DNA of 64,000 nucleotides from Massospora cicadina. Its lineage: Eukaryota; Entomophthoromycota; Entomophthoromycetes; Entomophthorales; Entomophthoraceae. Shown one piece after another: positions 6,385 to 60,800 of this stretch. Below the pieces are notes generated by a model. That model ran no database searches. It was not told the origin of the DNA and saw nothing but the letters and a program-made list of their open reading frames with translations. A program made the translations under genes and the position numbers. How positions within the stretch are numbered: position 1 is the first letter of the stretch; the number at the start of each line of letters is the position of its first letter. Where the stretch lies: assembly GCA_022478985.1 (NCBI GenBank), contig JAKSZP010009243.1:124001-188000 (forward strand), written 5' to 3'.

Positions 6385-7440
6385 TACTCAATTCACAACC
6401 CAGCCGCCTTGATCCTTAATGGTATATACATCTTCAGACAATTTCTCCAAAATTATAAATGGACCCTTCCAGAGTGAGGCTAGTTTGTGTGCGTGGCCTG
6501 CGCTATGAGTGTCACAATATACTACTAAATCTCCTTCATTAAACTTATTCACCGTAGCCTGTTTGCCATCATCATAGCTCTTTGAATAGTTTTTCAACTA
6601 ATCACATTTGATAAGCTTCCAATTGCAACTTGATTAGGGTCTTCACCAGTTGCTCAACATAGTTATTTGGGTTAATTGCGTCGGGTGAACTGAGTACTGA
6701 GTATAATAATGGAGGTAGAGTGGGCTGTCTACCATACAAAAGTTGAAACGGAGAGTGGCCTGTGCTGTTGTGGTGTCTGATATTGTATGCAAACATGGTC
6801 GCACTAATTGAAGTTGCCCATTGTGAAGGTGCCAAGGCTGCATTTTTATAAAATGCTGACTAAAGTGCCATTCACTCGCTCTACCATACCATTAGTCTCA
6901 GGATGGTATGGTGTTGACAACACTCCTTTGATAGACATCAACTCATTTAGCTGTTGTACCATTTGGGCAGTAAAATTTGTGCCATTGTCTGTCAATATCT
7001 TCTGGGGGCATCCATGCTTATAGATAATATTATCCATAATGAACTTGGCAGTAGTTAGGGCCCCAACATCTCAAATTGCTTTTGCTTCCACCCATTTTGT
7101 TAGATGGTCAATAGCAACAATTATGTATTTGTTGCCTAGGCTACTCACAGGCAAAGGGCCAATTACATCAATTGACATGGTATGCCAGGCCCAGTCAGGT
7201 TTGATCAGCTGATATTTCACATCTGACTTCATAGGTTTTGCAATTTGGCATGAATGACATTTCTCAAGCACATCTTGGATATTGAATCGCATGGAATCCC
7301 AATAGTAACTGGCTCAAATTAATTCTAGCATCTTAGTCATTCCCCATGTCTGATGGCCTTGTGTGCTTGTGTAATAATCTCCATTTGGTTGGAAGGTTTT
7401 GGGAAGATTTGACGTTGTCCATCGGGCTTAAGTTTGTATA
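6385..7440 (-). pseudogene. GY-B integrase (one stop and small shifts)
   Basis: Joins element DNA to target. Zinc finger tail CHSCQIAK at about 7250; core Asp in SIDVIGPLP near 7160-7185; second Asp in [13 protein letters not shown] near 6975-7015; Glu in [14 protein letters not shown] near 6865-6905. Between the second Asp and the Glu there are 35 residues, the DD35E spacing. C-terminal part FAYNIRHHNSTGHSPFQLLY near 6730-6790 and LASLWKGPFIILEKLSED near 6420-6480, ending WVVN before a stop. No chromodomain follows. A TGA at 7071-7073 (AKAI stop DVGA) looks like a CGA to TGA change; a shift lies near 6600-6850. Confidence 0.92.
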
Positions 7441-10668: not shown

Positions 10669-12329
10669 TCAATCTGCAAATTTGTCAATTGCTTCATCTT
10701 TCTTAAAGCTGATGTTCATAAACTTGGATTTTCTGGTCGACATCTGTTCTGGACCTCCAAATTCATGAAGCACGGCCTCCTTGACTTCAGCATATGTTGG
10801 ATTTTCGTTAATGTGAGGCATAATTAACTCAATGCTCCACTCATCCAAGCAGTTAATCATGGTGGCTGCTTTGTTGCGGTCGCTGGCCCCATGCATGGCC
10901 ATTTCAAAACGTTTGACAAATGTGGTAATACTTCTGTTCTTGTCAAAGGCCAGCAGGTTTGCTGGTTTATAATTATCGTTTCCCTGTTCCTGGTTATCAT
11001 GATTATTTCTAGGTTGACTAGAGCCAGGCGTACTAGGGCGTTGGGGCATTGTATCCCAGTTTGAGGTGCTAGGGTTGGCAAAGGCAACCATATTGCTAGG
11101 CAGTTGTTGACGTGGCCCAGAGTCCATTTTGGTAGCTATTTCTGAAGCTTTGTCCTCATAATATTCAGAAGAATTTCCAGTCAAGTGGGTTGTAGCACAC
11201 TGACAACGCCCGTTGTCCAGAGCTCAAATTTGCTTGTTTATTTTGTTTTCCCAATTGACATGATTTTGGTTTTTTAATTTTAATTTCACAATTTCCTCAT
11301 TCAGGCTAGTAGCTTGTAGCTGCAAGGTGGAAATCACTTGGTTTTTTCTTTTATGGCCTTCTTGCACTGGTTCAATTCTCCATGGAGATTATTGTTTGAC
11401 TCATTAATAATATTAACATCATCATTGAGATTATTGATCTGTAGATTAAGATGATCAATAGAGTCTCATTTTTTTCATTTTTTGCCCGTTGGTCCTCAAA
11501 TTGTGTTTTCCAGTAATTGATTTTTCTGGTGTATTCATCCTTCATCTGTGAAATTTGGGCACTCAGGCATCAATACTGGTCACAGAATTCATCGTTATGG
11601 TTTAACTGTGCCTCTTGGGCTTCGTGATTAAGCCTCATGGACTCTGCAGCATTAATAGAAGTCTGATTGATATTGCTGACCCAAGATTTGGTGACTCCTC
11701 TTTCCTCTAAGAAATTTTCAAAGATAGGATGCAATCTGTCATTTAGCTCTTGTGCTAATACTGCTACCGGGTTATTAGCCCAAGTGACTAAGTTGTAGTT
11801 TTCCTCCAAACTTGAACAGACCTCAGCGAAGTTGGCTTCCAATCGCTCATTTAGAATTTGGCCCACCTAGTTGGAGTTGCGAGAGAAGTTCACCAACTCA
11901 ACAATGGCTGCATGATGGTGGGCGATTGTCATCTGAGAATTTCTAGAGGTGGGATGTATGAATTCAATTAAGTATTGGGCGATATTCTCTATCCCAATTA
12001 AACTGTTTTCAGATCTGAGCTACACTTAATTGATGATGAGCAAGATATCTCATCCACAATACATCTTGCTGTCATTGGCGGTAAAAAGGGTTGCTACTAT
12101 TGTCTACGGGCCCTTGTCCTAATTGATACCCTTTTAACAACTGCTGCTCAAGACGTTCCAGCTCTTCAGGTGAAATGGGATCATTGGGATAGGTAATAAT
12201 GGGTACTTCTTCCCAATTAATCTGGGACACAGTCATTTCAGTGTTCCCATTGGGGCTGGCGATGGTTCTGAATAATTGATTGGGATTGCTCCCCTGTTCA
12301 GCGCGATCACCATCTGTGGTCCCAGCCAT
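10669..12329 (-). pseudogene. GY-B Gag N-terminal and central parts (broken)
   Basis: The only ATG in frame close to the primer site is at 12329 (MAGTTDGDRAEQGSNPNQLF); it lies inside the primer binding site itself. The frame to 12072 is acidic. A second piece 11866-11570 is predicted helical (ERLEANFAEVCSSLEENYNL), and 11184-10669 holds the capsid-like block NRSITTFVKRFEMAMHGASD and YAEVKEAVLHEFGGPEQ. Stops and shifts separate the pieces. The block is shared with GY-D (40210-40623) and GY-M (63490-63900), which is why I assign Gag even though its N-terminal part has no recognisable motif. Confidence 0.8.
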
Positions 12330-18330: not shown

Positions 18331-18676
18331 GCCCATTGATCAAACACCAAAATAAAAATTCTCCAGTCGCTGGTCATGTCATTTCAGGCCTGCTTTAACA
18401 GTAAATCCTCATGGCCCACTGTACCAACCAAATATGTGAAACTTAAACTTGTTTTAGATGCAGTGCCTAAGAAGCATGATGGGCTCCTCAGGAGCAGAAC
18501 AATGTAATAAACCAGCTTGACAACACTAAGTCAGATGTGGATTCTGGGACAACAAAACAGGCAATTCACTACCATCTAGTACTAAAAAAAACAGGCAACT
18601 CACTAATCACCTGGATGACACTACTGAATGACTGCATTATGCAGAGCAAAAGTTAGATGGTACCCCCCAGCCCCCT
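18331..18676 (+). other. GY-E leader before CV-F insertion
   Basis: About 345 bp of interior sequence between primer site and CV-F. No long frame is seen. It contains the very short A-tailed insertion at 18571-18590. The leader resumes after CV-F at 24739. Confidence 0.7.
18557..18604 (+). mobile_element. Minimal A-tailed retroposon, copy 1, with target duplication
   Basis: ACCATCTAGTACT plus seven A (18571-18590) is flanked by ACAGGCAATTCACT (18557-18570) and ACAGGCAACTCACT (18591-18604), 13 of 14 identical. Long target duplication plus 3' A-tail is the mark of target-primed reverse transcription. The same 3' end with its own, different duplication occurs at 34745-34798. Confidence 0.72.
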
Positions 18677-29859: not shown

Positions 29860-30420
29860 TGCCAAGATTCTGATATGAATGGACAATAATCATTGGATAG
29901 CTAAGGTGGATTAGTCAAAACGCCAGCCATAATTATTAGTTACAATAAATTGAGCGCCTTGGGATGAGGTGATATTGGGTCAGAACGGATAATTAATGGA
30001 TCACCTCCAAATAAGGCGATAAGGCAATGTTGACATATGATGAATATTTAATAGATTGCCTCAAACTAAGGGAATAGAGAATTTAAGAAAATATCTTACT
30101 CTTACAGAGCCAAGGAGAATACAATGGAACCAAATAGAATAAGCCAAAGGAGCGGCATCAATCAAAGTCACTGATATATAAGTGAGATGGGACAATTGAA
30201 GGGGAGGATTGTTGATAGGAAGTTAAAAGCGGAGCAGAAAGATCTACTAATATTACTATATAAATAAAGTATTGTGGTCAGAGCTAAATGCTTTGTATTT
30301 ACTAAAATCTCTAAGTTGTTTTGTGGACTGACGATCCTCACATCACCAATCCATTGTTCAGGGGTTTGACCCTGTGCAACCCTTATAGCGTATCCCAACA
30401 ATATTGCCAAAATTATAACA
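29860..30420 (+). repeat. GY-E 3' LTR
   Basis: Repeat of 17745-18311 with ends TGCC...AACA. Its right end touches a CV-H-like purine tract on the opposite strand, see findings. Confidence 0.9.
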
Positions 30421-34744: not shown

Positions 34745-34798
34745 ATGTATTCTTAATCACGGACCATCTAGTACTAAAAAAAATGTATTCTTAATCAC
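34745..34798 (+). mobile_element. Minimal A-tailed retroposon, copy 2, with perfect target duplication
   Basis: GGACCATCTAGTACT plus seven A (34761-34782) is flanked by ATGTATTCTTAATCAC at 34745-34760 and 34783-34798, 16 of 16 identical. Same 3' end as copy 1 (18571-18590), two bases longer at the 5' side. Confidence 0.8.
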
Positions 34799-45357: not shown

Positions 45358-45506
45358 TCATCCATCCTAGTTTATCTAAAGTTATTGTGGGGAAGACTGA
45401 CCATGGGATGGACACTTCCGAATATGACTCAGGAAAGACAAACTTAGTACCAGGGGAGGCACCCCAGAGAAGCGATGCTATCTCTTGTTGCCAGCGGGAA
45501 CGCCAC

Positions 45507-48500
45507 TTATGGGGAGGGAGAGGGGACGTGTGAAGGGGCCGTAGCCACTATTGAGCACGTGTGGAGGAAGGGGTCTGATTTGATGAACCAGATTTGGAAC
45601 CAGGAGGAGACCAGCTGTCGGCGACGCGGTGGGAGGTATCCAAACATCCATGCTTGGAAGTGGTCCACCAAATGAGACCGAAATCTTTGGAAAGTTTCTG
45701 GGAGGGTGGGTGTGGAGCCTGCGATGGCATCTAAGACGATCGTGTGGATGTTCCACATGGCGATTGCAACCACCAGAGCACGGAGGGAGGGTGGAAGAGG
45801 GGAGGCCATTGATAGAGCAAACATATCTCTTGACAGACTGAAGGGATGCGTTTGATCCTGGCCCAGCAGACGTTGAACTTCGCGCCATATCACTTATGAG
45901 GTGGGGCACTTCTCCAGGCGGTGGATCAGCGTTCCATACTGGCCACACATGACACAGGATGAGTGTAAAGCGTTAGAGCGCTCAGCTGTACGATACACCC
46001 GCCTCAGGCAGCGCCACACATGGGAGCGGACTTAAGGCTGCAACAGAGGATGGTGTGCGTATTTCCAGATAGTTTTTTGGGTCTCAGTGGAATAAGGGAT
46101 GTTTATCATGTCCAGGTAGTCCACCCTGGATAGGACATGGGGCCGAATGGGGATCACGCCATCATGGATGGGTAGCCCTTGTACCTCTTGTGTGAACTGA
46201 GGAGAGGGGCGGCCTCTTCAGGTTGTATGTCCGCTAATACAAATTCTCAACTCTGCGCTTCGCATGGAGAGTAGGATTCGTTTGTAGTGGGTTTTAGTCC
46301 CGTGAGGACCTGTGGCCGATGTGTGTGATGCGAGGTATTTCATCAGGGAGTGGGGGTTTGATGGATTGTTGAGGCCCAAGGCTCAGGAGAAGTTGGAGTG
46401 GGCCGCGCGGGACCAGTGTTGGGATGGGAGTGTAGGAGCGGTGACGGCCGCGATCCAGGTGCTCAGGATCTTGGCAGCATGGGCTTTGAAGTCAAGCAGG
46501 CCCATGCCACCTTGATGATGAGGGCCAAACAAGACCTCTAGCCGTACTGGTGGAGGGCGGCCTGACCAAAGCCATCCTTGCAGCAAGGCATACAGGGATT
46601 TGAAGAAGCTTGGGGAGAAGGGGATGGCGTGGGCTCCAAACCAGACTTTGGATAGGAGCATAGAGTTGGATAGAACAACCCTGCCAGTGAGGGTAGTAGG
46701 GTGGGCTTCAAGAGAGGCGATTCGCTTCGTCACGTTGTCCAGTATAAGGCCCTCCATTAATGCTGACGCGTATCCGCCTGCCTCCATCCACACGCCCAGA
46801 TGGCGCACCTGTCCTATGGTAGGACGTGGCACAAGGGGAGCACCCGTGGGGTGGTGGGTGTTGAGTTAGTAAGGCGTGGGCGTGGGCGAGCAGATGGGCC
46901 GGGTTGGGAACTAATTGCTGGGGCCCAGCAGTTCTGAAACCGACCAAGGAGGATGATTTTGGTTTTGGAGGCGTTCAGTGTCGCGTTGCTTACCCAGGAA
47001 TATTCCTGGATGAGGGCTTCAAGTGCGCGTGCATCTTTGTTATTAGACACCCGCACCACGCAGTCATCTGCAAATGTCATCATCTTGACTGGGGTTTGTC
47101 CTGGCACATGGACCCCAGTGAGTTGGGCATTCACATTTCGCAGTAGTAGGTCAAGGCTGAAGTTGTATAAGAATGGCTGAGGAGGTCCCCTTGTCGCAAG
47201 CCCCTTTGAGGGTGGACTACTTCCGTTAGAAAGCCTGGGCCACGCACTGCCATTGTTGCAGATTCCGTGAGCAGCATTACCCAGTTTATGAAGTGGGGGG
47301 GTAGGCGGAATTGATGGAGGCAGGCCCTAAGGTATTCCCAGTTTACTCTATCGTAGGCCTTTTGTTGGTCCAAGAATACCAGTGCCCCAGAGGCTGTGGA
47401 CTGACATGCATTAGCCACAGAGTGCACGTTATCCCAAATCGACCTTCTGGAGATGAAAACGAATTGTTCTGGGGAGATGGTGGCAGATGCTACAGTCCCT
47501 AAACGGTTAGCCATGATTTTTGTTAAAATTTTATTTTCTGTGTTTGTTAGAGAAATGGGGCGCCAGAAGGAAAAGTTAAGCTTATCCCCTTTCTTGTAGA
47601 GTGTGACAGTAAAGGCCTCATGTCCTCCTGTTAGGAGGCGCGTTTCCAACAGGCTTTGGTTAAGTGAGGCTAGCAGCAATGGGGATATATATCTGAAATA
47701 TTTTTTGTAGAACTCATATGGAATGCCATCTGGGCCTGGGCATTTTTGGTTTGGCACACCGCGAATGGCTGTCCATAATTTGTTCGGAAAAATTCAATTC
47801 ATTATTTCTGGGTATCAGAAAATGGTGCAGATATGAGCTCAGTTGAGAAATTCTGCCATTTTGCCAGCTGAATTGGTTCAGCTCGGTATAACTCGGAGTA
47901 ATATTTTTGCATTTTGATTGCCACTTTGGCTGGTGTGTCCAAAATGGAATTATCTGATCTTCACACCTGTGTGCAGGCCACGCTCTGGCGTGGTGCAAAA
48001 TTTTTTTAAAGAATTATGCGGTGCACTTTTCACCTTTAGTGATGCATGTGGCCCTGTATTGGACACAAACCCAATGTTTGTGTTGCCTTTCAAGTGCGTT
48101 GAGGTGGGCGGCTGCCTCTGCCCACTTCCAGCCCCATGCAGGGCTGTATCCTGTAGCTGGAATGTTGGACTCCAAGTGGGCCAATTCCGCCAGAGTGCAT
48201 GAGATAACCGCCGATGTGGCTCATGAGCATCTGGAGGAGAGATGGCGATTGTGGTGGATGGTGTCCTCTTTGAAAGTTGCCCATGTGGAAATGGGGTCCG
48301 CGCAAAATGGTGCAACAAACAATTTGCCGAAGTTGCCTCTTCCACCCATGTGGAAAATCCTGGTGATGTGAGCTCGGGGGGGGCAGATTTTGCACCAATG
48401 TGGGGCCTTTGCAACTGTGACAGGTAAGTGGTAGGTTATTGATACCAGTCAGTGGTCAGAGAATTCCATTTTTGTTGTTTTGAAGAGGGAGATTTGGGGT

Positions 48501-49130
48501 TGGAATTTCGCCGGTGTTAGAATAAGGTTGATGTGGGTCATGGACCTTAATTGGCCATTGTGGATGTGGGGACGCATCATGTTTTTGAGCAGCGGGGCAT
48601 GTCGCAGCAGCACACCATTAACCCAAGGGTGGCCTTTAGAACGCATAGCTCTACATGACCCTGTGCAGCGTGGGGTGAGGGGGTCACCGGTCCATTGGTG
48701 AGGTTAGCCAATAGTTCATGTCGCTGACTAGGAAAGAATCAGGGGGTAGCAGGAGGGATTTGACTGATGAGAAAAATTCCTGACGCTCGTGTGCACCATT
48801 TGGGGCATAGATGTTGACGATTGCATGCACTACATCAGCCCACAAGAAGTTGACGACGAGCACTCAGCCATTTAGGAATGTTTTTGAGGATGTGAATTTG
48901 AAAAAATTATATTTCTGATTTAGCACCCCACAGTGCTTTGACCAAAAGGATAGGGATGGGAGGAGCATTGTTTTCCAAGCTTTCTTGGAACCTCGTGGAC
49001 AGTGGGACTCCTGGATGGCCAGGATATCCATGGGTAAATTGTGTTGTAAAAAACTCAGTTTTCTACCCCGGGATGGTGAGGCCTTGAGTCCAGCGATATT
49101 CAACGTCCTTAGAGTGAAGGTTTCCCCCAT
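45507..49130 (-). pseudogene. LN-1 ORF2: endonuclease, reverse transcriptase, CCHC (broken)
   Basis: Starts at ATG 49130 with MGETFTLRTLNIAGL, then the endonuclease motif DILAIQESHCPRGSKKAW near 49040-48985 and VNIYAPNGAHERQEFFSSV. RT: KCPGPDGIPYEFYKKYFRYI near 47750-47690, GHEAFTVTLYKKGDKLNF, FWRPISLTNTENKILTKIMA, FLDQQKAYDRVNWEYL, then LRQGDLLS, and the catalytic box MMTFADDCVVRVSNNKD near 47085-47035 (FADD complete). The end has CVMCGQYGTLIHRLEKC (CX2CX7HX4C) near 45950-45905 and a terminal helix. Frameshifts near 49000, 48400, 47200, 46800. LINE clade not assigned; the layout fits L1-like fungal elements. Confidence 0.92.
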
Positions 49131-49319
49131 TGCGCCTTAGGTGTGAGGGGTGAGCCCCCAGGCCCACCAGCCTCTTCAAGGTCCCCACGGGCTTTCACAG
49201 CAGTGTGGGTGTTAGCAGCAACGCTATTGGGGTTTTTGTTAATTTTTGTGGAAAGAGTTGTGTTGGCTTTGGCCTTCGCTTTTTGTTTTCCCAACGTCAG
49301 ACAAAGTTTTTGCGGTGCA

Positions 49320-50549
49320 GATGAGTTCAGTGCACCATCAAGCGGGTCAAATTTTTTTTTTCAGCTGGGATAGGTCCCAAGTCAGTTTCAACTGGAGCTT
49401 GGGTGCAGCGATTAGGTGAGATCAAATCTCCCATTGGATCCTCAAATTGAGTGGCCCACTCAGCCTGGGCTTCCCAATCTGATTGGACGATAGATTCCCA
49501 AGTTGCTTCCACCACGAAGGTCTCCATGTCCTCCTGGCGTTGTGAGTGTGGGATGGCGGTGGTGGCCTTGGCCGCTTCCTTGGCCATGGCCCTATGGGCC
49601 TGCTTGGCCTTCTTCCACTCCTGCGGGGAGATGGGCTTTACCAATAGGTAGCAGCCTTGTGCTCCCCACGGGAAAGCCTCCTTGGTGCTTGCAGTTGGTT
49701 CATAGTGCGCCTCTCCGCTGGCCATGGCCGCCGAGGGGTGCTCTTGGAATGTATCGCCCTCCTTGATGGGGCATGTGTGCACCTTATGGCTGAACGCGTC
49801 ACAGTGGGTACAAATGGGGGGCGCGCTGTCCACAGTTACCTGGAATGGGTGGGTGGTATGCCCTACAATATCAATAAAAGTGGAGTGCAGGATCTGGGTT
49901 AGGTCCTTCGCGATCTCCTCAGTTGGGGTCAGAACTGCGATGGCTTTGCCGGTGCACAGGTGTGGCATCAGCGTGAAGCGTTGCATTTTGAAAGATTGTA
50001 TTTCGCTATATACGGCGAGACCTTCTTTCAGGTGTTGTTTAAAAATGGCACATTTTACCTTAGTAGGCAAAAAGTCAAACATGAGGAAAATTTGGTTTGA
50101 TTTTGTCCATCTAGTGCATTTGGTTTTGATGACCCATTGCCCTTCAGGAGGTCAACCACTATGTGCACCGCTGCAGCCTCATCTGCTGCTTTTTTGCTTT
50201 TAAAACCTAGGTCCAGCCAACCACGCGACATGGAGTGAGGTGCAACGTACACCGCGGTCAGGAAAACTTTGTGTGCATCTTCACAAAATTTTTCCCATAA
50301 GGCCGTTTTTTGGATGTCCAGATACACATGGACTCCGAATTCCACTGACGAAAGTGGCTGGGAGTGTGGCGTGTTGATGTACTGGTTGCATCGTGCTTGC
50401 CACACGAGTATCTTTGGGGAAATTGTGGCCGCCAGTTTTTTAAGATTTTTGTCTATTCCACCGGATTCTCTGGGGCGTTTTTGAACGTTGGAGGCCACGG
50501 GCCTTCCACCTGCTCCTCTTACCTTGCTTGCCTAACTGCTCCCTGACAT
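49320..50549 (-). pseudogene. LN-1 ORF1: RNA-binding CCHC protein (broken)
   Basis: ATG at 50549 (MSGSS) meets TAG at 50532-50534 where LN-2 has TGG, so the start is dead. The text continues MASNVQKRPRESGGIDKNLK (50498), YINTPHSQPLSSVEFGVHVY and GWLDLGFKSKKAADEAAAVH to about 50150, then shifts to DFLPTKVKCAIFKQHLKEGL and the zinc knuckle PICTHCDAFSHKVHTCPIKE near 49815-49760 (CX2CX4HX4C). The Ala/Lys-rich C-terminal part is HRAMAKEAAKATTAIPHSQR. Likely binds the LINE RNA. About 400 codons, as in LN-2. Confidence 0.88.
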
Positions 50550-50660
50550 GGGCACAGACTAATCTCCTCTGTGAGATCATCAAACTAGATTCAGTCTTGA
50601 GTTGAATAGGTTGCAATAGTGATTGCAACGAGAAAGAAAAGTCCTCATCCATCCTATTTA

Positions 50661-52535: not shown

Positions 52536-52633
52536 TCAGGACTTTTCTTTCTCGTTGCAAACACTTTTGCAACCTATTTAATTCAAGACTAGATCTAGTT
52601 TGATAATCTCACAGAGGAGATTAGTCTGCGCCC

Positions 52634-53888
52634 ATGTCAGGGAGCAATTGGGCAAGCAAGGTAAGAGGAGCAGGCGGAAGGCCCGCGGCCTCCAACGTTC
52701 AAAAACGCCCCAGAGAATCCGGCAGAATAGACAAAAATCTCAAAAAACTGGCGGTCACAATTTCCCTGGAGATACTCACATGGCAAGCACGATGCAACCA
52801 GTACATCAACACGCCACACTCCCAGCCACTTTTGTCGGTGGAATTTGGAGTCTGTGTGTATCTAGATATCCAAAAAACGGCCTTATGGGAAAAATTTTGT
52901 GAAGATGTACACAAAATTTTCCCAACCGCGGTGTACATTGCACCTCACTCCATGTCGTGTGGTTGGATTGGACCTAGGTTTAGAAAGCAAAAAAGCAGCA
53001 GATGAGGCTGCAGCGGTGCGCATAGTGGTTGACCTCCCTGAAGGGCAACGGGTCATCGAAACCAATTGCACCAGATGGACAAAATCAAACCAAATTTTCC
53101 TCACGTTTGACTTTTTGCCTACTATGGTAAAACGTGACATTTTGGAGCAACACCTGAAAGATGGTCTCGCTGTATATGGCAAAATACAATCTTACAAAAT
53201 GCAACGCTTCACGCTGATGCCACACCTGTGCACTGGCAAAGCCATCGCAGTTCTGACCCCAACTGAGGAGATCGCGAAGGACCTAAACCAGATCCCACAC
53301 TCCACTTTTATTTATATTGTAGGGCATACCACCCACCCATTCTGGGTAACTGTGGATAGCACGCCCCCCATTTGCACCCACTGTGACGCGTTTGGCCATA
53401 AGGTGCACACATGCCCCATCAAGGAGGGCGTCACATTCCAAAAGCACCCCTCGGCAGCCATGGCCAGTGGAGAGGCGCACTATGAACCAACTGCAAGCAC
53501 CAAGGAGGCTTTCCCGTGGGGAGCACAAGGCTGCTACCTATTGGTAAAGCCCATCTCCCCGCAGGAGCAGAAGAAGGCCAAGCAGGCCCATAGGACCATG
53601 GCCAAGGAAGCGGCCAAGGCCACCACCACCATCCCACACTCACAACGTCAGGAGGACATGGAGACCTTTGCGGTGGAAACAACTCGGGAATCCATCATCC
53701 AATCAGATTGGGAAGCCCAGGCTGAGTGGGCCACTCAATTTGAGGATCTAATGGGAGATTTGATCTCACCTAATCGCTGCACCCAAGCTCCAGTTGAAAC
53801 TGACTTGGGACATATCCCAAATGAAAATTTTTTTTTGACCCACTCAATGGTGCACCAAACTCATCTGCAACGCAAAAAATTTGTCTGA
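52634..53888 (+). pseudogene. LN-2 ORF1: RNA-binding CCHC protein (one frameshift)
   Basis: ATG at 52634: MSGSNWASKVRGAGGRPAAS, then CNQYINTPHSQPLLSVEFGV. A frame change near 52975-52985 (LN-1 stays in frame here) leads to LGLESKKAADEAAAVRIVVD, and the frame is then open to 53888 with the knuckle PICTHCDAFGHKVHTCPIKE near 53373-53430 and HRTMAKEAAKATTTIPHSQR. Only one lesion is visible, less than in LN-1 ORF1. Start chosen because LN-1 has the same ATG context. Confidence 0.9.
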
Positions 53889-54055
53889 TGTTGGGAAAAC
53901 AAAAAGCGAAGGCCTAAGCCAACAAAACTCTTTCCACAAAAATTAACAAAAACCCCAATAGCATTGCTGTTAACACCCACACTGCTGTGAAAGCCCGTGG
54001 GGACCTTGAAGAGGCTGGTGGGCCTGGGGGCCCACCCCCTCGCACCTAAGGCGCA

Positions 54056-57000
54056 ATGGGGGAAACCTTCACTCTAAGGACGTTGAATATCGCTGGACTC
54101 AAGGCCTCCCCGTCCCAGGCTAGGAAACTGAGTTTTTTACAACACAATTTACCCATGGATATCCTGGCCATCCAGGAGTCCCACTGTCCACGAGGTTCCA
54201 AGGAAGCTTGGAAAAAATGCTCCTCCCATCCCTATCCTTTTGGTCGAAGCACTGTGGGGTGCTAATTCAGAAAAATAGTTTTTTCAAATTCACATCCTCA
54301 GAAACATTCCTAAATGGCCAAGCGCTCGTCGTCACCTTCTCATGGGCTGACGTTGCGCATGCAATCGTCAACATCTATGCCCCAAATGGTGCACACGAGC
54401 ATCAGGAATTTTTCTCATCAGTCAAATCCCTCACGCTACCCCCTGATTCTTTCCTAGTTGGCGATATGAACTGTTGGCTAACCTCACCAACGGACTGGTG
54501 GCCTCCCTCACCCCACGCCTCACTGGGTCACATAGAACTACGCGTTCTAAAAGCCACCCTTGGGTTAATGGATGCGCTGCTGACATGCCCCACTGCTCAA
54601 AAACATGACGCGTCCCCACGTCCACAACGGCCAATTAAGGTCCATGACCCGCATCAATCTTATTCTAACACCGGCGAAATTCCAACCCCACATCTCCCAC
54701 TTCAAAACAACGAAAATGGAATTCTCTGACCAATGACTGGTCTCAATAACCTACCACTTACCCATCACAGTTGCAAAGGCCCCACATTGGTGCAAAATCT
54801 GCCCCCCAAGCTCGCATCACCAGGATTTTCCACGTGGGTGGAAAGAGGCAACTTTGGCAAAATTATTTGTTGCACCATTTTGTGCAGACCCCATTTCCAC
54901 ATGGGCAACTTTCAAAGAGGACACCATCCACCACTATCGCCATCTCTCCTCCAGACGCTCACAAGCCACATCAGCTGTTATCTCATGCACTCTGGCGGAA
55001 TTGGCCCACTTGGAGTCCAACATTCCAGCTACAGGATACAGCCCTGCATGGGGCCAGAAGTGAGCGGAGGCAGCCGCCCACCTCAATGCACTCGAAAGGC
55101 AACACAAACATTGGGTTTGTGTCCAATACAGGGCCACACGCATCACTAAAGGCGACAAGTGCAACACATACTTCTTTTAAAAATTTTTGCACCACAATAG
55201 AGCGTGGCCTGCACACAGGTGCAAAGATCAGATAATTCTATTGCGGACACACTGGCTGAAGTGGCAATCGAAATGCAAAAATATTACTCTGAGTTATGCC
55301 AAGCTGAACCAATTCAGCTTGCTGAAATGGCAGAATTTCTTGACCGAGCTCATATCTGCACCATTTTCTGATACCCGGAAATAATGAATTGAATTTTTCC
55401 AAACAAATTATGGACAGCCATTCGCGGTGTGCCAAACCAAAATGCCCAGGCCCAGATGGCATTCCATATGAGTTCTACAATAAATATTTCAAATATATAT
55501 CCCCATTGCTGCTAGCCTCACTTAACCAAAGCCTGTTGGAAACGCGCCTCCTACCAGGAGGACATGAGGCCTTTACTGACACACTCTATAAGAAAGGAGA
55601 TAAGCTTGACTTAGTCAACTGGCGCCCCATTTCTCTAACAAACACAGACACCAAAATTTTAACAAAAATCATGGCTAACCGTTTAGGGACTGTAGCATCT
55701 GCCACCATCTCCCCAGAACAATTCGTTTTCATCTCCAGAAGGTCGATTTGGGATAACGTGCACTCTGTGGCTAATGCATGTCAGTCCACAGCCTCTGGGG
55801 CACTGGTATTCTTGGACCAACAAAAGGCCTACGATAGAGTAAACTGGGAATACTTTAGGGCCTGCCTCCATCAATTCCGCCTACCCCCACTTCATAAACT
55901 GGGTAATGCTGCTCACGGAATCTGTGACAATGGCAGTGCGTGGCCCAGGCTTCCTAACGGAAGTAGTCCACTCAAAGGGGCTTGCGACAAGGGGACCCCC
56001 TCAGCCCACTCTTATACAACCTCAGCTTTGACCTACTACTGCGAAATGTGAATGCCCAACTCACTGGGGTCCATGTGCCAGGCCAAACCCCAGTCAAGAT
56101 GATGGCATTTGCAGATGATTGCGTGGTGGGAGTGTCTAATAACAAAGATGCACGCGCACTTGAAGCCCTTCATCCAGGAATATTCCTGGGTAAGCAACGT
56201 GGTACTGAACGCCTCCAAAACCGAAATCATCCTCCTTGGTCAGTTTCAGAACTGCTGGGCCCCAGCAATTAGTTCCCAACCTGGCACATCTGCTCGCCCA
56301 CGTCCACGCCTTACTAACTCAACACTCACCGCTCCACTGGTGCTCCCCTTCGTGCCACATCCTACCATAGGACCGGTGCGCCATCTGGGCGTGTGGATGG
56401 AGGCAGGTGGATATGCATCAGCAGTAATGGAGGGCCGTATACTGGACAACGTGACGAAGCAAATCGCCTCTCTCAGAGCCCACCTACTACCCTCACTGGC
56501 AGGGTAGTTCTTGCCAACTCTATACTCCTATCCAAAGTATGGTTCGGAGCCCACGCCATCCCCTTCTCCCCAAGCTTCTTCAAATCCCTGTATGCTTTGC
56601 TGCAAGGATGGCTTTGGTTAGGCCGCCCTCCACCAGTACGGCTAGAGGTCATGTTTGGCCCCCATCATCAAGGTGGCATGGGCCTGCTTGACTTCAAAGC
56701 CCATGCTGCCAAGATCCTGAGCACCTGGATCGCGGCCGTCACCGCTCCTACACTCCCATCCCAACACTGGTCCCGCGCAGCCCGCTCCAACTTCTCCTGA
56801 GCCTTGGGCCTCAACAATCCATCAAACCCCCACTCCCTGATGAAATACCTCGCATCACACACATCGGCCACAGGTCCTCACGGGACTAAAACCCACTACA
56901 AACGAATCCTACTCTCCATGCGAAGCGCAGAGTTGAGAATTTGTATTAGCGGACATACAACCCAAAGAGGTCGCCCCTCTCCTCAGTTCACACAAGAGAA

Positions 57001-57676
57001 ACAGGGGCTACCCATCCATGATGGCGTGATCCCCATTCGACCCCATGTCCTATCCAGGGTGGACTACCTGGACATGATGGACATCCCTTATTCCACTGAG
57101 ACCCAAAAGACTATCTGGAAATACGCACACCATCCTCTGTTGCAGCCTCAAGTCCGCTCCCATGTGTGGCACTGCCTGAGGCGGGTGTATCGTACAGCTG
57201 AGCGCTCTAACGCTTTACACTCATCCTGTGTCATGTGTGGCCAGTATGGAACGCTGATCCACCGCCTGGAGAAGTGCCCCACCTCATAAGTGATATGGCG
57301 CGAAGTTCAACGTCTGCTGGGCCAGGATCAAACGCATCCCTTCAGTCTGTCAAGAGATATGTTTGCTCTATCAATGGCCTCCCCTCTTCCACCCTCCCTC
57401 CGTGCTCTGGTGGTTGCAATCGCCATGTGGACTATCCACACGATTGTCTTAGATGCCATCGCTGGCTCCATCCCCAACCTCCCAGAAGCTGTCCGCAGAT
57501 TCCGGTCTCATTTGGTGGACCACTTTCAAGTGTGGATGTTTGGATATCTCCCACCGCGTCGCCAACAGCTGGTCTCCTCCTGGTTCCCAGTCTGGTTCAT
57601 CAAATCAGACCCCTTCCTCCACACGTGCTCAATAGTGGCTACGGCCCCTTCACACGTTCCCTCCCCCTCCCCATAA
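54056..57676 (+). pseudogene. LN-2 ORF2: endonuclease, reverse transcriptase, CCHC (broken)
   Basis: ATG at 54056, MGETFTLRTLNIAGL. Endonuclease: ILAIQESHCPRGSKEAW, VNIYAPNGAHEHQEFFSSV, and PDSFLVGDMNCWLTSP near 54445-54490. Breaks near 54200, 54725 and around 55150-55380. RT: KCPGPDGIPYEFYNKYFKYI, VNWRPISLTNTDTKILTKIM, FLDQQKAYDRVNWEYFRACL (55389-55870), MRQGDPLSPLLYNLSFDLLL (55982), catalytic MMAFADDCVVGVSNNKD near 56099-56150 with FADD complete. C-terminal CVMCGQYGTLIHRLEKC near 57230-57280, then MIWREVQRLLGQDQTHPFSL to 57676. Frames change about eight times. Confidence 0.92.
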
Positions 57677-57823
57677 GTGGCGTTCTCGCTGGCAACAAGA
57701 GATAGCATCGCTTCTCTGAGGTGCCCCCCTGGTACTAAGTTTATCTTTCCTGAGTCATATTTGGAAGTGTCCATCCCATGGTCAGCCTTCTCCGCAATAA
57801 ATTTAAATTTAAATTTAAATAAT
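57677..57823 (+). other. LN-2 3' UTR and AAATTT tail
   Basis: GGCGTTCTCGCTGGCAACAA and CATCGCTTCTCTGAGGTGCC are shared with the LN-1 end. The tail is AATAAATTTAAATTTAAATT and on. LN-3 shows a related but shorter end (GGTTAAATAAAAGCTTAAA), so the tail is of short A/T units and not poly(A). Confidence 0.8.
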
Positions 57824-60800
57824 CTCCCTGCGAAAACCCCTTGTAGAAATCTTGGCCATCCAAGAAACCCACTGTCTACAAGGGGAAGAAGGATCCTGGA
57901 CAGCCAGGGTCTCACCATCACAATCAGTATGGATTTCTCAATGTGGGGTGATCATCCGAAATAACAAAAAATTAAAAATTAAAAACTCCTCATCATACCT
58001 TCACAGTCGCATCCTGGTAGCAACAATCACATGCCAAGAGGAAACAATCTCAATAGCATGCATCTATGCACTGTGCACTGCAGCTGAAAGAAAACAATTT
58101 CTTGAAACTGTTTTAACACTCATCCTCCCACCAGATACCACCCTGTTGGGTGACTTTAACTGCTGGGATAACTTCAACATGGACTGATGGCCTAACCCCA
58201 GGGATACCCACCGGGGCACATCAAATTCCGCACAATGAAGGCATCCCTTGGCCTACAGGATGCCCTCCCCCTGGATCACCACTCCTTCCCCACATGACAT
58301 GGCCCAACATATGTGAGGGAGCACTCATATTAATGAGCCACATCGAGCACATCCTCATTCTACAAACCCAACGATCAAAATTTCCAAATTTACAACAAAA
58401 AAGTCAATTTCTCTGACCAATGACTTGTTTTAGTGCAGTTATTGCCAACCCAAACCCACGCTCAGGTGTCGCCCTGGAGAAAGCTACACCCAGAAAACAT
58501 TAAATTACCCAAAATATCTGACTGGGTTGAACATGAGGCTACAAACCAAGAATTCACAGCCCCATTCACATCAGATCCCATTGTAACATGAGCAAATTTC
58601 AAAAAGGAACTAATCAACAAAACCTGACATCTCATATCATGTAAGTACACCGCTGATACAGCCACAATTAGGCGTACCTTGGCGTAACTGGACCACCTTG
58701 AGCTTAACACCCTGAGATCTGGTTGTAGCCCCAACTGGGGATGCAAATGGGCGGAAATATCCGCCCAACTAATCACCCTCATCTTTGAGCACCAACACAG
58801 AATGAAAGTATCAAACAAAGGTAAGTCCATAAAGGAAGGTGAAACATGTTTGACATATTCTTCCACCAATTCCACTCCCACGGCAACCAGCCCACATGCA
58901 TACAGGTCCACAAGACTGACGGCACTGTGGCAACTGACCCTGAGGAGGTCAAGGCGGAAGTACACCGCTATTACACTGAATTATACTGTGATACGCTGAC
59001 AGACCCACAAAAAATCAAAAAATTTATACAAACTGCCAGAATACAAATCACACCGCCGAACTACAATATTCTAAATCTAATTACATGGGAGGAGCTTTAG
59101 GATACAACCCGCGGTGCACCACATATGAAATACCCAGAGCCTGATGAAATACCCTACAAAATTTTCCAAAAATATTTTTAGCAAATTGCCCCCTCCTATT
59201 GGCGTCTATGAACCAGTGCTTGTTTGATACACGCCTCCTGCCTGGTGGCCATGAATCATATGTCATAACCTTGTATAAAAAGGGTGAAAAATTGGACCTG
59301 GCCAGCTGGCGTCCAATCGCACTCTCTAATACTGACACAAAAATTCTAACAAAAATTTTAGCAGCCAGATTAGGCGCAATTGCCTCTGACGTCCTGTCAT
59401 TCAAACAGTTTGGGCTTTTACCAGGGAGCTCAATCTGGAACAACATACACCCTGTTGCAAACATATGTCAGTTCAAAGCAACTGGATCCCTGGTCTTCTT
59501 AGACCAGGAAAAGGCATACAACTGCATCAGTTGGCCATACCTAAATGAATGCCTACACGCTTTCAAACTCCCACCCAGATTCATAAACTGGGTGATGCTC
59601 CTTACAGAATCTTCAATCATGGCTGTATGCGGCACTGGCTTCCTAACTAACAAGATCACATCACACAAAGGGCTCAAACAAGGGGACCCCCTCAGCCCAC
59701 TTCTGTATAATTTCAGTTATGATCCACTCCTCCGCGTAACTGACTCATGCCTCATGGGCATAACTGCACAAGGCCAGCCAACAGTCAAGATACTGGCCTT
59801 TGTGGATGACTGCGTGGCAGGTATAGCTAACAACAATGATTCCCAACAGCTGGAACGCACCCTAGAGGAATACTTCATGGTGAGTAATGTATCGCTCAAC
59901 AAAAGGAAAACAGAAATCATTCTAATTAGGCAAGTACACTAACAACTGGGCTACAACACCAGAACCTCATAACCCCTTATGAAGGAAAAACCCACTCATC
60001 TTACCTTTTGCATCACCTCCCATCAACACTCCTGTCCGCCACCTTGGGATATGGCTGGAAACAGGGGGATATGCCAATGAGACAATGGAAAGTAACCTAC
60101 TACAGCGGATATCCAACCGCGTAGCCTCCCTCAAGGGAAGATCCCCAGGACTAACGGGGTGAGTAACAGTTGCTAATTCTCTCATCCTCCCAATACTGTG
60201 GTTCCCTTCCCACTCAATCGCCTTCTCATCCACCTTATAACTTTAATTCGCGCGCTCATCCAGGGCTGGCTGTGGCCTAGATCCCATCCTCCCATATGGA
60301 TGGAAACACTCTTTGGCCCACGCTCAAGCGGAGGCATGGGACTAATAGATTTTGAGAGCCACGCCAACTGCATCCTGGGTACCTGGATAAAGGAAGTCCT
60401 TACCCCAAACCTCCCGCAACAACACTGAGCCAGGGAAGCGAGGACTAACTTTGCACAGGCGCTCAAACTAACCAACCTACATAGCCCACCCAGACTAATA
60501 TCATACTTGCTAAACACCCTACTGCAACGGGCCCACATGGAAACCCCCCTCACTTCAAATGCATCCTCCAAACCATCCGCCACATGGGATGGACTGTAGA
60601 GAACACTGGCACTGTGCAGGGAAGGGGATGACCCAGCACCCACTTTAAATTATGAAATCTTTAAAACCACCCTAGAGATAAATGCTTGCTATGACCCCAT
60701 CCATTGCTAGAATTGAATACCAAGATGCGTTGGACATTCTCTACGACTTAACCACACAGAAGATAGTGTGGAGAATGACGCACCACCCACTCCTACAGCC

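Follow-up and report, generated by a model that had tools for sequence, protein, structure and literature searches.

Very short A-tailed insertions with target-site duplications in Massospora cicadina and their LINE source

Introduction

L1-like LINEs produce 5'-truncated insertions by target-primed reverse transcription, and L1 copies are mostly far longer than 13 to about 47 nt. SINEs are short and A-tailed and carry duplications. How LINE integration completes after first-strand synthesis is, to our knowledge, an open question. Massospora cicadina is a cicada-killing fungus with a giant genome. We describe here a short A-tailed insertion in this genome, located inside a Ty3 element (GY-D), and the family of similar insertions (stubs) to which it belongs. 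The stubs share the A-tail, the fixed 3' end, the 5' truncation, the long target-site duplications and apparently the A-rich target with L1-like LINEs, but differ in that 54 of 61 copies are 13 to about 47 nt long (by-eye sorting) and in that their lengths are clustered. They resemble SINEs in being short, A-tailed and flanked by duplications; however, the insert is a subset of a LINE 3' end, and at 15 nt it is too small to hold the internal pol III promoter part (tRNA, 7SL or 5S related) of a SINE.

According to the accessible part of a published genome comparison, a LINE expansion that is unique among the genomes compared came after the Ty3 expansion in M. cicadina (PMC10515909). The stubs lie in this same genome, two of them inside Ty3-rich sequence, but that part of the publication makes no mention of stubs, 3' ends or truncation. 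A search of the open-licence literature, matched by words and not by meaning, returned no account of very short or abortive LINE insertions, as judged from titles and opening lines of abstracts; the retrieved portion of one article (PMC5105311) held no relevant content on this subject, and the only match to the word ACCATCTAGTACT was, as far as its retrieved portion goes, an article on breast cancer.

The insertion at 34745-34798 and a second copy in the window

The analyzed window is a stretch of 64,000 nt, which contains two stubs. The initial annotation had proposed that the one at 34745-34798 is an insertion of GGACCATCTAGTACT with an A7 tail, flanked by a perfect duplication of 16 bp, and direct reading of the sequence bears this out:

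34745..34760, + strand: left copy of the 16-bp target-site duplication, sequence ATGTATTCTTAATCAC, with two occurrences genome-wide
34761..34775, + strand: 15-nt LINE 3' end GGACCATCTAGTACT, identical to the 3' end of long LINE copies
34776..34782, + strand: A7 tail; an eighth A is common to the tail and the right duplication copy (A-run 34776-34783)
34783..34798, + strand: right copy of the 16-bp target-site duplication, identical to the left copy

The second stub, copy 1, has the same core with a shorter tail:

18554..18570, + strand: left copy of a 17-bp duplication, which pairs with the right copy
18571..18583, + strand: 13-nt LINE 3' end ACCATCTAGTACT, the same core as in the insert at 34745-34798
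18584..18587, + strand: A4 tail; the A-run runs on into the duplication
18588..18604, + strand: right copy of the 17-bp duplication, with 1 mismatch to the left copy

The 20-mer ACCATCTAGTACTAAAAAAA, which joins the 13-base core to seven A's, is found at two places in the window, where only 0.01 would be expected even with up to 3 mismatches allowed. The duplicated 16-mer has two exact matches in the window; when up to 3 mismatches are allowed there are four, compared with an expectation of 0.81. In the whole genome (1,469,884,898 bases in 16,968 contigs) it occurs exactly twice, both times at 34745-34798, and therefore no other Ty3 copy shares the insert. Neither a tRNA nor an Rfam family at gathering score was found in the window, and derivation of the stub from either was dropped.

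An alignment of other GY-D copies across the site had been suggested as a check, with a single copy of the 16-mer expected at an empty site. One relative, albeit a distant one, spans the site: the stretch L042:8489-8970 can be aligned at 65% identity over the flanks of the stub once these are joined, and it lacks both the stub and a second repeat resembling the 16-mer. A related stretch elsewhere in the window matches only to 42345, short of the stub site, and among the sequences compared no relative spans the site of copy 1. Since the 16-mer is private to this copy and L042 lacks the insert, the stub is younger than its Ty3 host, as had been surmised from the perfection of the duplication. 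As far as exact 16-mers go, their number in the genome rules out the opposite outcome, in which every other copy would have the stub with both repeats. An origin as ancestral Ty3 sequence was dropped on the two grounds just given, the private 16-mer and the relative without the insert.

Genome-wide abundance

The 20-mer ACCATCTAGTACTAAAAAAA occurs 25,962 times in the genome, compared with 0 for its reversed control and an independent-base expectation of 0.008. With this number and a 16-mer unique to the site, a chance direct repeat was dropped as an explanation. The 13-base end followed by five A's, ACCATCTAGTACTAAAAA, occurs at 30,390 places (reversed control 0), so that 85% of the places have at least seven A's; the density corresponds to about one exact place per 48 kb. 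The insertion type proposed at the outset is supported, and can be refined in that the stub is one member of a family with about 30,000 exact places.

We also counted exact LINE-end words by the minimum length they represent. Ends of at least 21 nt were found at 10,831 places, of at least 41 nt at 6,648 and of at least 55 nt at 2,352, with reversed controls of 0 each. The mean loss per nucleotide among these exact words is 12% for 13-21 nt, 2.4% for 21-41 nt and 7.2% for 41-55 nt. The words, of 17 or 18 bases, pass over mutated copies, and the 21-nt word misses the CTCAGG subfamily; the counts for this large family are lower bounds, and for these reasons the length curve is approximate. Tens of thousands of copies end in the same 13 bases, and apparently most of them are stubs left by a near-immediate stop of copying. 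Stubs can lie close together, for example at G000:C8:409681 and 409745, and in L029, where a pair is 251 bp apart on opposite strands.

Source LINE

The stub grades into a longer shared 3' end among the 30 loci found with the 20-mer ACCATCTAGTACTAAAAAAA. Four long copies (L003, L005, L013 and L014) have LINE coding sequence upstream over about 1.5 kb, to the edge of the sequence examined. In L013, positions 405-1106 encode a reverse transcriptase zinc finger (zf-RVT, Pfam, E 2.4e-6), and a FADD box was identified by eye in L014; thus long copies with the same 3' end carry a reverse transcriptase signature in the form of the zf-RVT of L013. The upstream frame L013:3-404 has no match to a Pfam family. 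Matches to RVT_1 are confined to other LINEs in the window and absent from the stub family, whose recovered source sequence excludes the 5' part of the element and contains neither an endonuclease domain nor a full-length copy. The 3' end of the source LINE reads AATAAACATCGATGAATC, a run of C, TTGGGTTGGGACCATCTAGTACT and an A-tail, a pattern that can also be written ...AATAAACATCGATGAATC(C)nTTGGGTTGGGACCATCTAGTACT(A)n. The insert at 34745-34798 corresponds to the last 15 bases of a LINE (non-LTR retrotransposon), and the still hidden retroposon that the initial annotation had postulated behind it is now found as a LINE with a reverse transcriptase zinc finger and the same 3' end.

The L013 frame has two protein matches, P0001 and P0002, both from M. 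cicadina; to one 'hypothetical protein' of this species it shows 96% identity across 91% of the frame. Public protein sets give both of these LINE ORFs that name. Relative to L003, an internal deletion in L014 joins GGTCTGCACTA to GGCGTAATTC.

Other LINEs are present in the window. The intervals 45374-50645 (- strand) and 52538-57808 (+ strand) are two inverted LINE copies, with aligned pieces 88-97% alike; this pair (45.4-50.6 and 52.5-57.8 kb) was dropped as a source of the stub because its 3' ends differ. A further LINE reverse transcriptase fragment is located at 59148-59942 (RVT_1, E 2.9e-30), and its closest database relative is 46% identical and unnamed. This fragment, which is not of the stub family, resembles human LINE-1 ORF2 chains (E 1.3e-19); its top solved chain, 8c8j, named only as RNA-directed DNA polymerase, scores about equal to LINE-1 ORF2.

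Anatomy of 61 copies

We collected 61 copies from the 30 loci of the 20-mer, from 20 stretches around further listed places and from the window. L001 and L002, which are the window itself, were left out as loci, and duplicate places (L030 overlaps L029) and those too near the locus ends were dropped. The loci were picked by the exact 20-mer, and shorter and decayed copies are accordingly under-counted. Throughout this set the 3' end is fixed and followed by an A-tail, and the 5' end varies.

Duplications of 11-23 bp, as expected for target-primed insertion of LINEs, were called in 50 of the 61 copies. They are perfect in 41 of these 50, and 13 mismatches are found in 807 bases; true flank pairs score at least 10 in 46 of 61 copies, compared with 5 of 3,660 mismatched pairings. 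The caller reached only 60 nt upstream, which puts long copies out of its range, and the 11 copies without a call include the long L003, L005, L007, L013, L014, L044 and L048 (minus strand), the others being L025, L031, L039:6700 and L043:4338. Among the 50 called copies, 46 have A as the first base of the duplication and 41 have A as the second; the caller extends through A's, so these values, together with positions +2/+3, are partly set by construction. The A or T at position -2 in 47 of 50 called copies is independent of this extension. Microhomology at the 5' junction is slight (0.84 nt versus 0.43 nt in shuffles, p=0.0014). The stub at L037:4905 (minus strand) has six extra A's 5' of ACCATC, perhaps from a template switch into an A-tail.

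Length classes and shortest inserts

The initial annotation expected a fixed 3' end with variable 5' truncation. The first part holds; the 5' end does vary, but it clusters in classes rather than varying freely. On consensus coordinates, with 5' microhomology added, a length could be assigned to 37 of the 50 called copies: 26 measure 13-24 nt, 11 measure 41-43 nt and none falls between. The 13 unplaced copies have extra or changed bases. Eight of the 11 placed copies of the middle class measure exactly 41 nt and start one base inside AATAAA.

For all 61 copies, the program assigned 35 to lengths up to 24 nt, six to 25-38, 12 to 39-44, three to 45-150, one to 151-1499 and four to at least 1490 nt, one of these four being the reference L013 itself. 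Sorting by eye gave 36 copies up to 24 nt, three at 25-38 nt, 15 at 39-47 nt and seven long ones. The re-sorting took account of added bases in L008, a duplication called too long in L011, a start that varies in L023, a match that runs on by chance in L043:4338, the internal deletion of L014 and one altered copy whose start is uncertain. The copies between the classes are L025 (28 nt), L031 (25 nt) and L039:6700 (34 nt), so the gap has exceptions. Over the range of 25-150 nt, drop-off at a constant rate is rejected on the program classes (P 2e-6) and on the by-eye classes (P 3e-9 for 15 of 18 copies, 1e-8 for 15 of 19). The losses per nucleotide from the genome-wide exact words are in keeping with these classes.

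Even shorter inserts were recovered by a scan for any A-run with a duplication, irrespective of the LINE end, over 352,620 bases lying mostly around known copies and hence a biased sample. It returned 65 structures, 46 of which carry a LINE end of at least 12 nt. In L047, an 8-nt insert, CTAGTACT, is flanked by a perfect 16-bp duplication; in L031, a perfect 16-bp duplication flanks a 4-nt insert, TACT, although four bases could match by chance. Among the remaining 17 structures, at least four are second readings of stubs already known, and the rest are weak or have no relation to the family.

Proposed mechanism and alternative explanations

We consider it probable, with good confidence, that the insert is an abortive LINE copy, for which target-primed reverse transcription stopped very early while integration still went to completion. 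In the proposed course of events, a presumed LINE endonuclease would nick beside an A-rich stretch, with a top strand approximating W-[T>C,G]|AARA. The DNA end, which terminates in T, would then pair with the LINE RNA at its A-tail, and reverse transcription would begin. In most events, the enzyme may come off its template before more than about 24 nt of LINE sequence have been copied, on entry into a 3'-terminal segment able to fold as GAUGAAUCCC..GGGACCAUC; a second sharp exit point would lie one base inside AAUAAA, which on the consensus is 41 nt from the end. The short cDNA would finally be joined across a staggered second cut, which would give the full duplication (11-23 bp as called).

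Several candidates may account for the two presumed barriers, namely a hairpin, a protein bound to AAUAAA, a polymerase of weak processivity or a cut template. The ends at 13-24 nt fall in the 3' arm and loop of the possible hairpin GAUGAAUCCC..GGGACCAUC. However, its stability is no better than that of shuffles (z -0.19, -0.07 and +0.30), and in a longer fold of 107 nt another pairing replaces it; a purely structural barrier is therefore weak, and hairpin stability as the sole cause is unsupported by the shuffle comparison. A fuller version of the abortive-copy reading, which we put forward tentatively and at somewhat below even chances, regards the genome as a fossil record of aborted target-primed reverse transcription. 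The polymerase would meet two set barriers, the terminal 24 nt and AAUAAA (occupied, e.g., by a polyadenylation factor), and the second-strand steps would be independent of cDNA length, so that even 4-8 nt could be sealed with a full duplication.

An RNA with a defined 5' end could account for the sharp 41-nt start just as well. Short inserts might be complete copies of short A-tailed 3' RNA fragments, either LINE mRNA cut by RNAi or another nuclease or a discrete 41-nt RNA, so that their 5' ends would be RNA ends instead of polymerase stops, which we judge unlikely. This explanation accords with the common starting base of eight of the 11 placed middle-class copies and with the presence of both CTTGGG and CTCAGG ends in that class, which therefore arose more than once; related fungi are reported to have RNAi machinery, according to the accessible part of the publication cited above (PMC10515909). 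Yet the 5' ends of the short class are scattered, down to 8 and 4 nt, and drop-off gives such ends more easily. The chances are slimmer still for an independent non-autonomous retroposon of about 41 nt that uses the LINE machinery: the sharp 41-nt class and the 4,296 exact places (6,648 - 2,352) that end at 41-54 nt or are mutated upstream would fit it, but the CTCAGG end of the middle-class copies L035 and L047 is also that of the long L044 and L048, and 41 nt leave no space for an internal promoter. Chance direct repeats, ancestral Ty3 sequence or an assembly artefact can hardly be credited, for although homopolymer lengths may be off in a published assembly built from noisy long reads (PMC9584336, in its accessible part), the excess of exact 20-mers, the separate duplication of each of the 50 copies, the confinement of the 16-mer to this site and the one relative without the stub all speak against them.

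Implications

The process as such, that of L1-like LINEs, is already known; the extreme shortness, the number and the clustered ends of the copies are without precedent found in the searched literature. If complete duplications, as seen in the 50 copies with called duplications, flank tens of thousands of inserts of 4-43 nt, second-strand cutting and joining cannot need a long cDNA. The stop positions would then show at which points a block acts on the polymerase or on its template. As genome markers the stubs are dense, and ordinary repeat masking probably misses them. With most of these copies apparently left by a near-immediate stop, the M. cicadina genome would be a natural record of aborted jumps.
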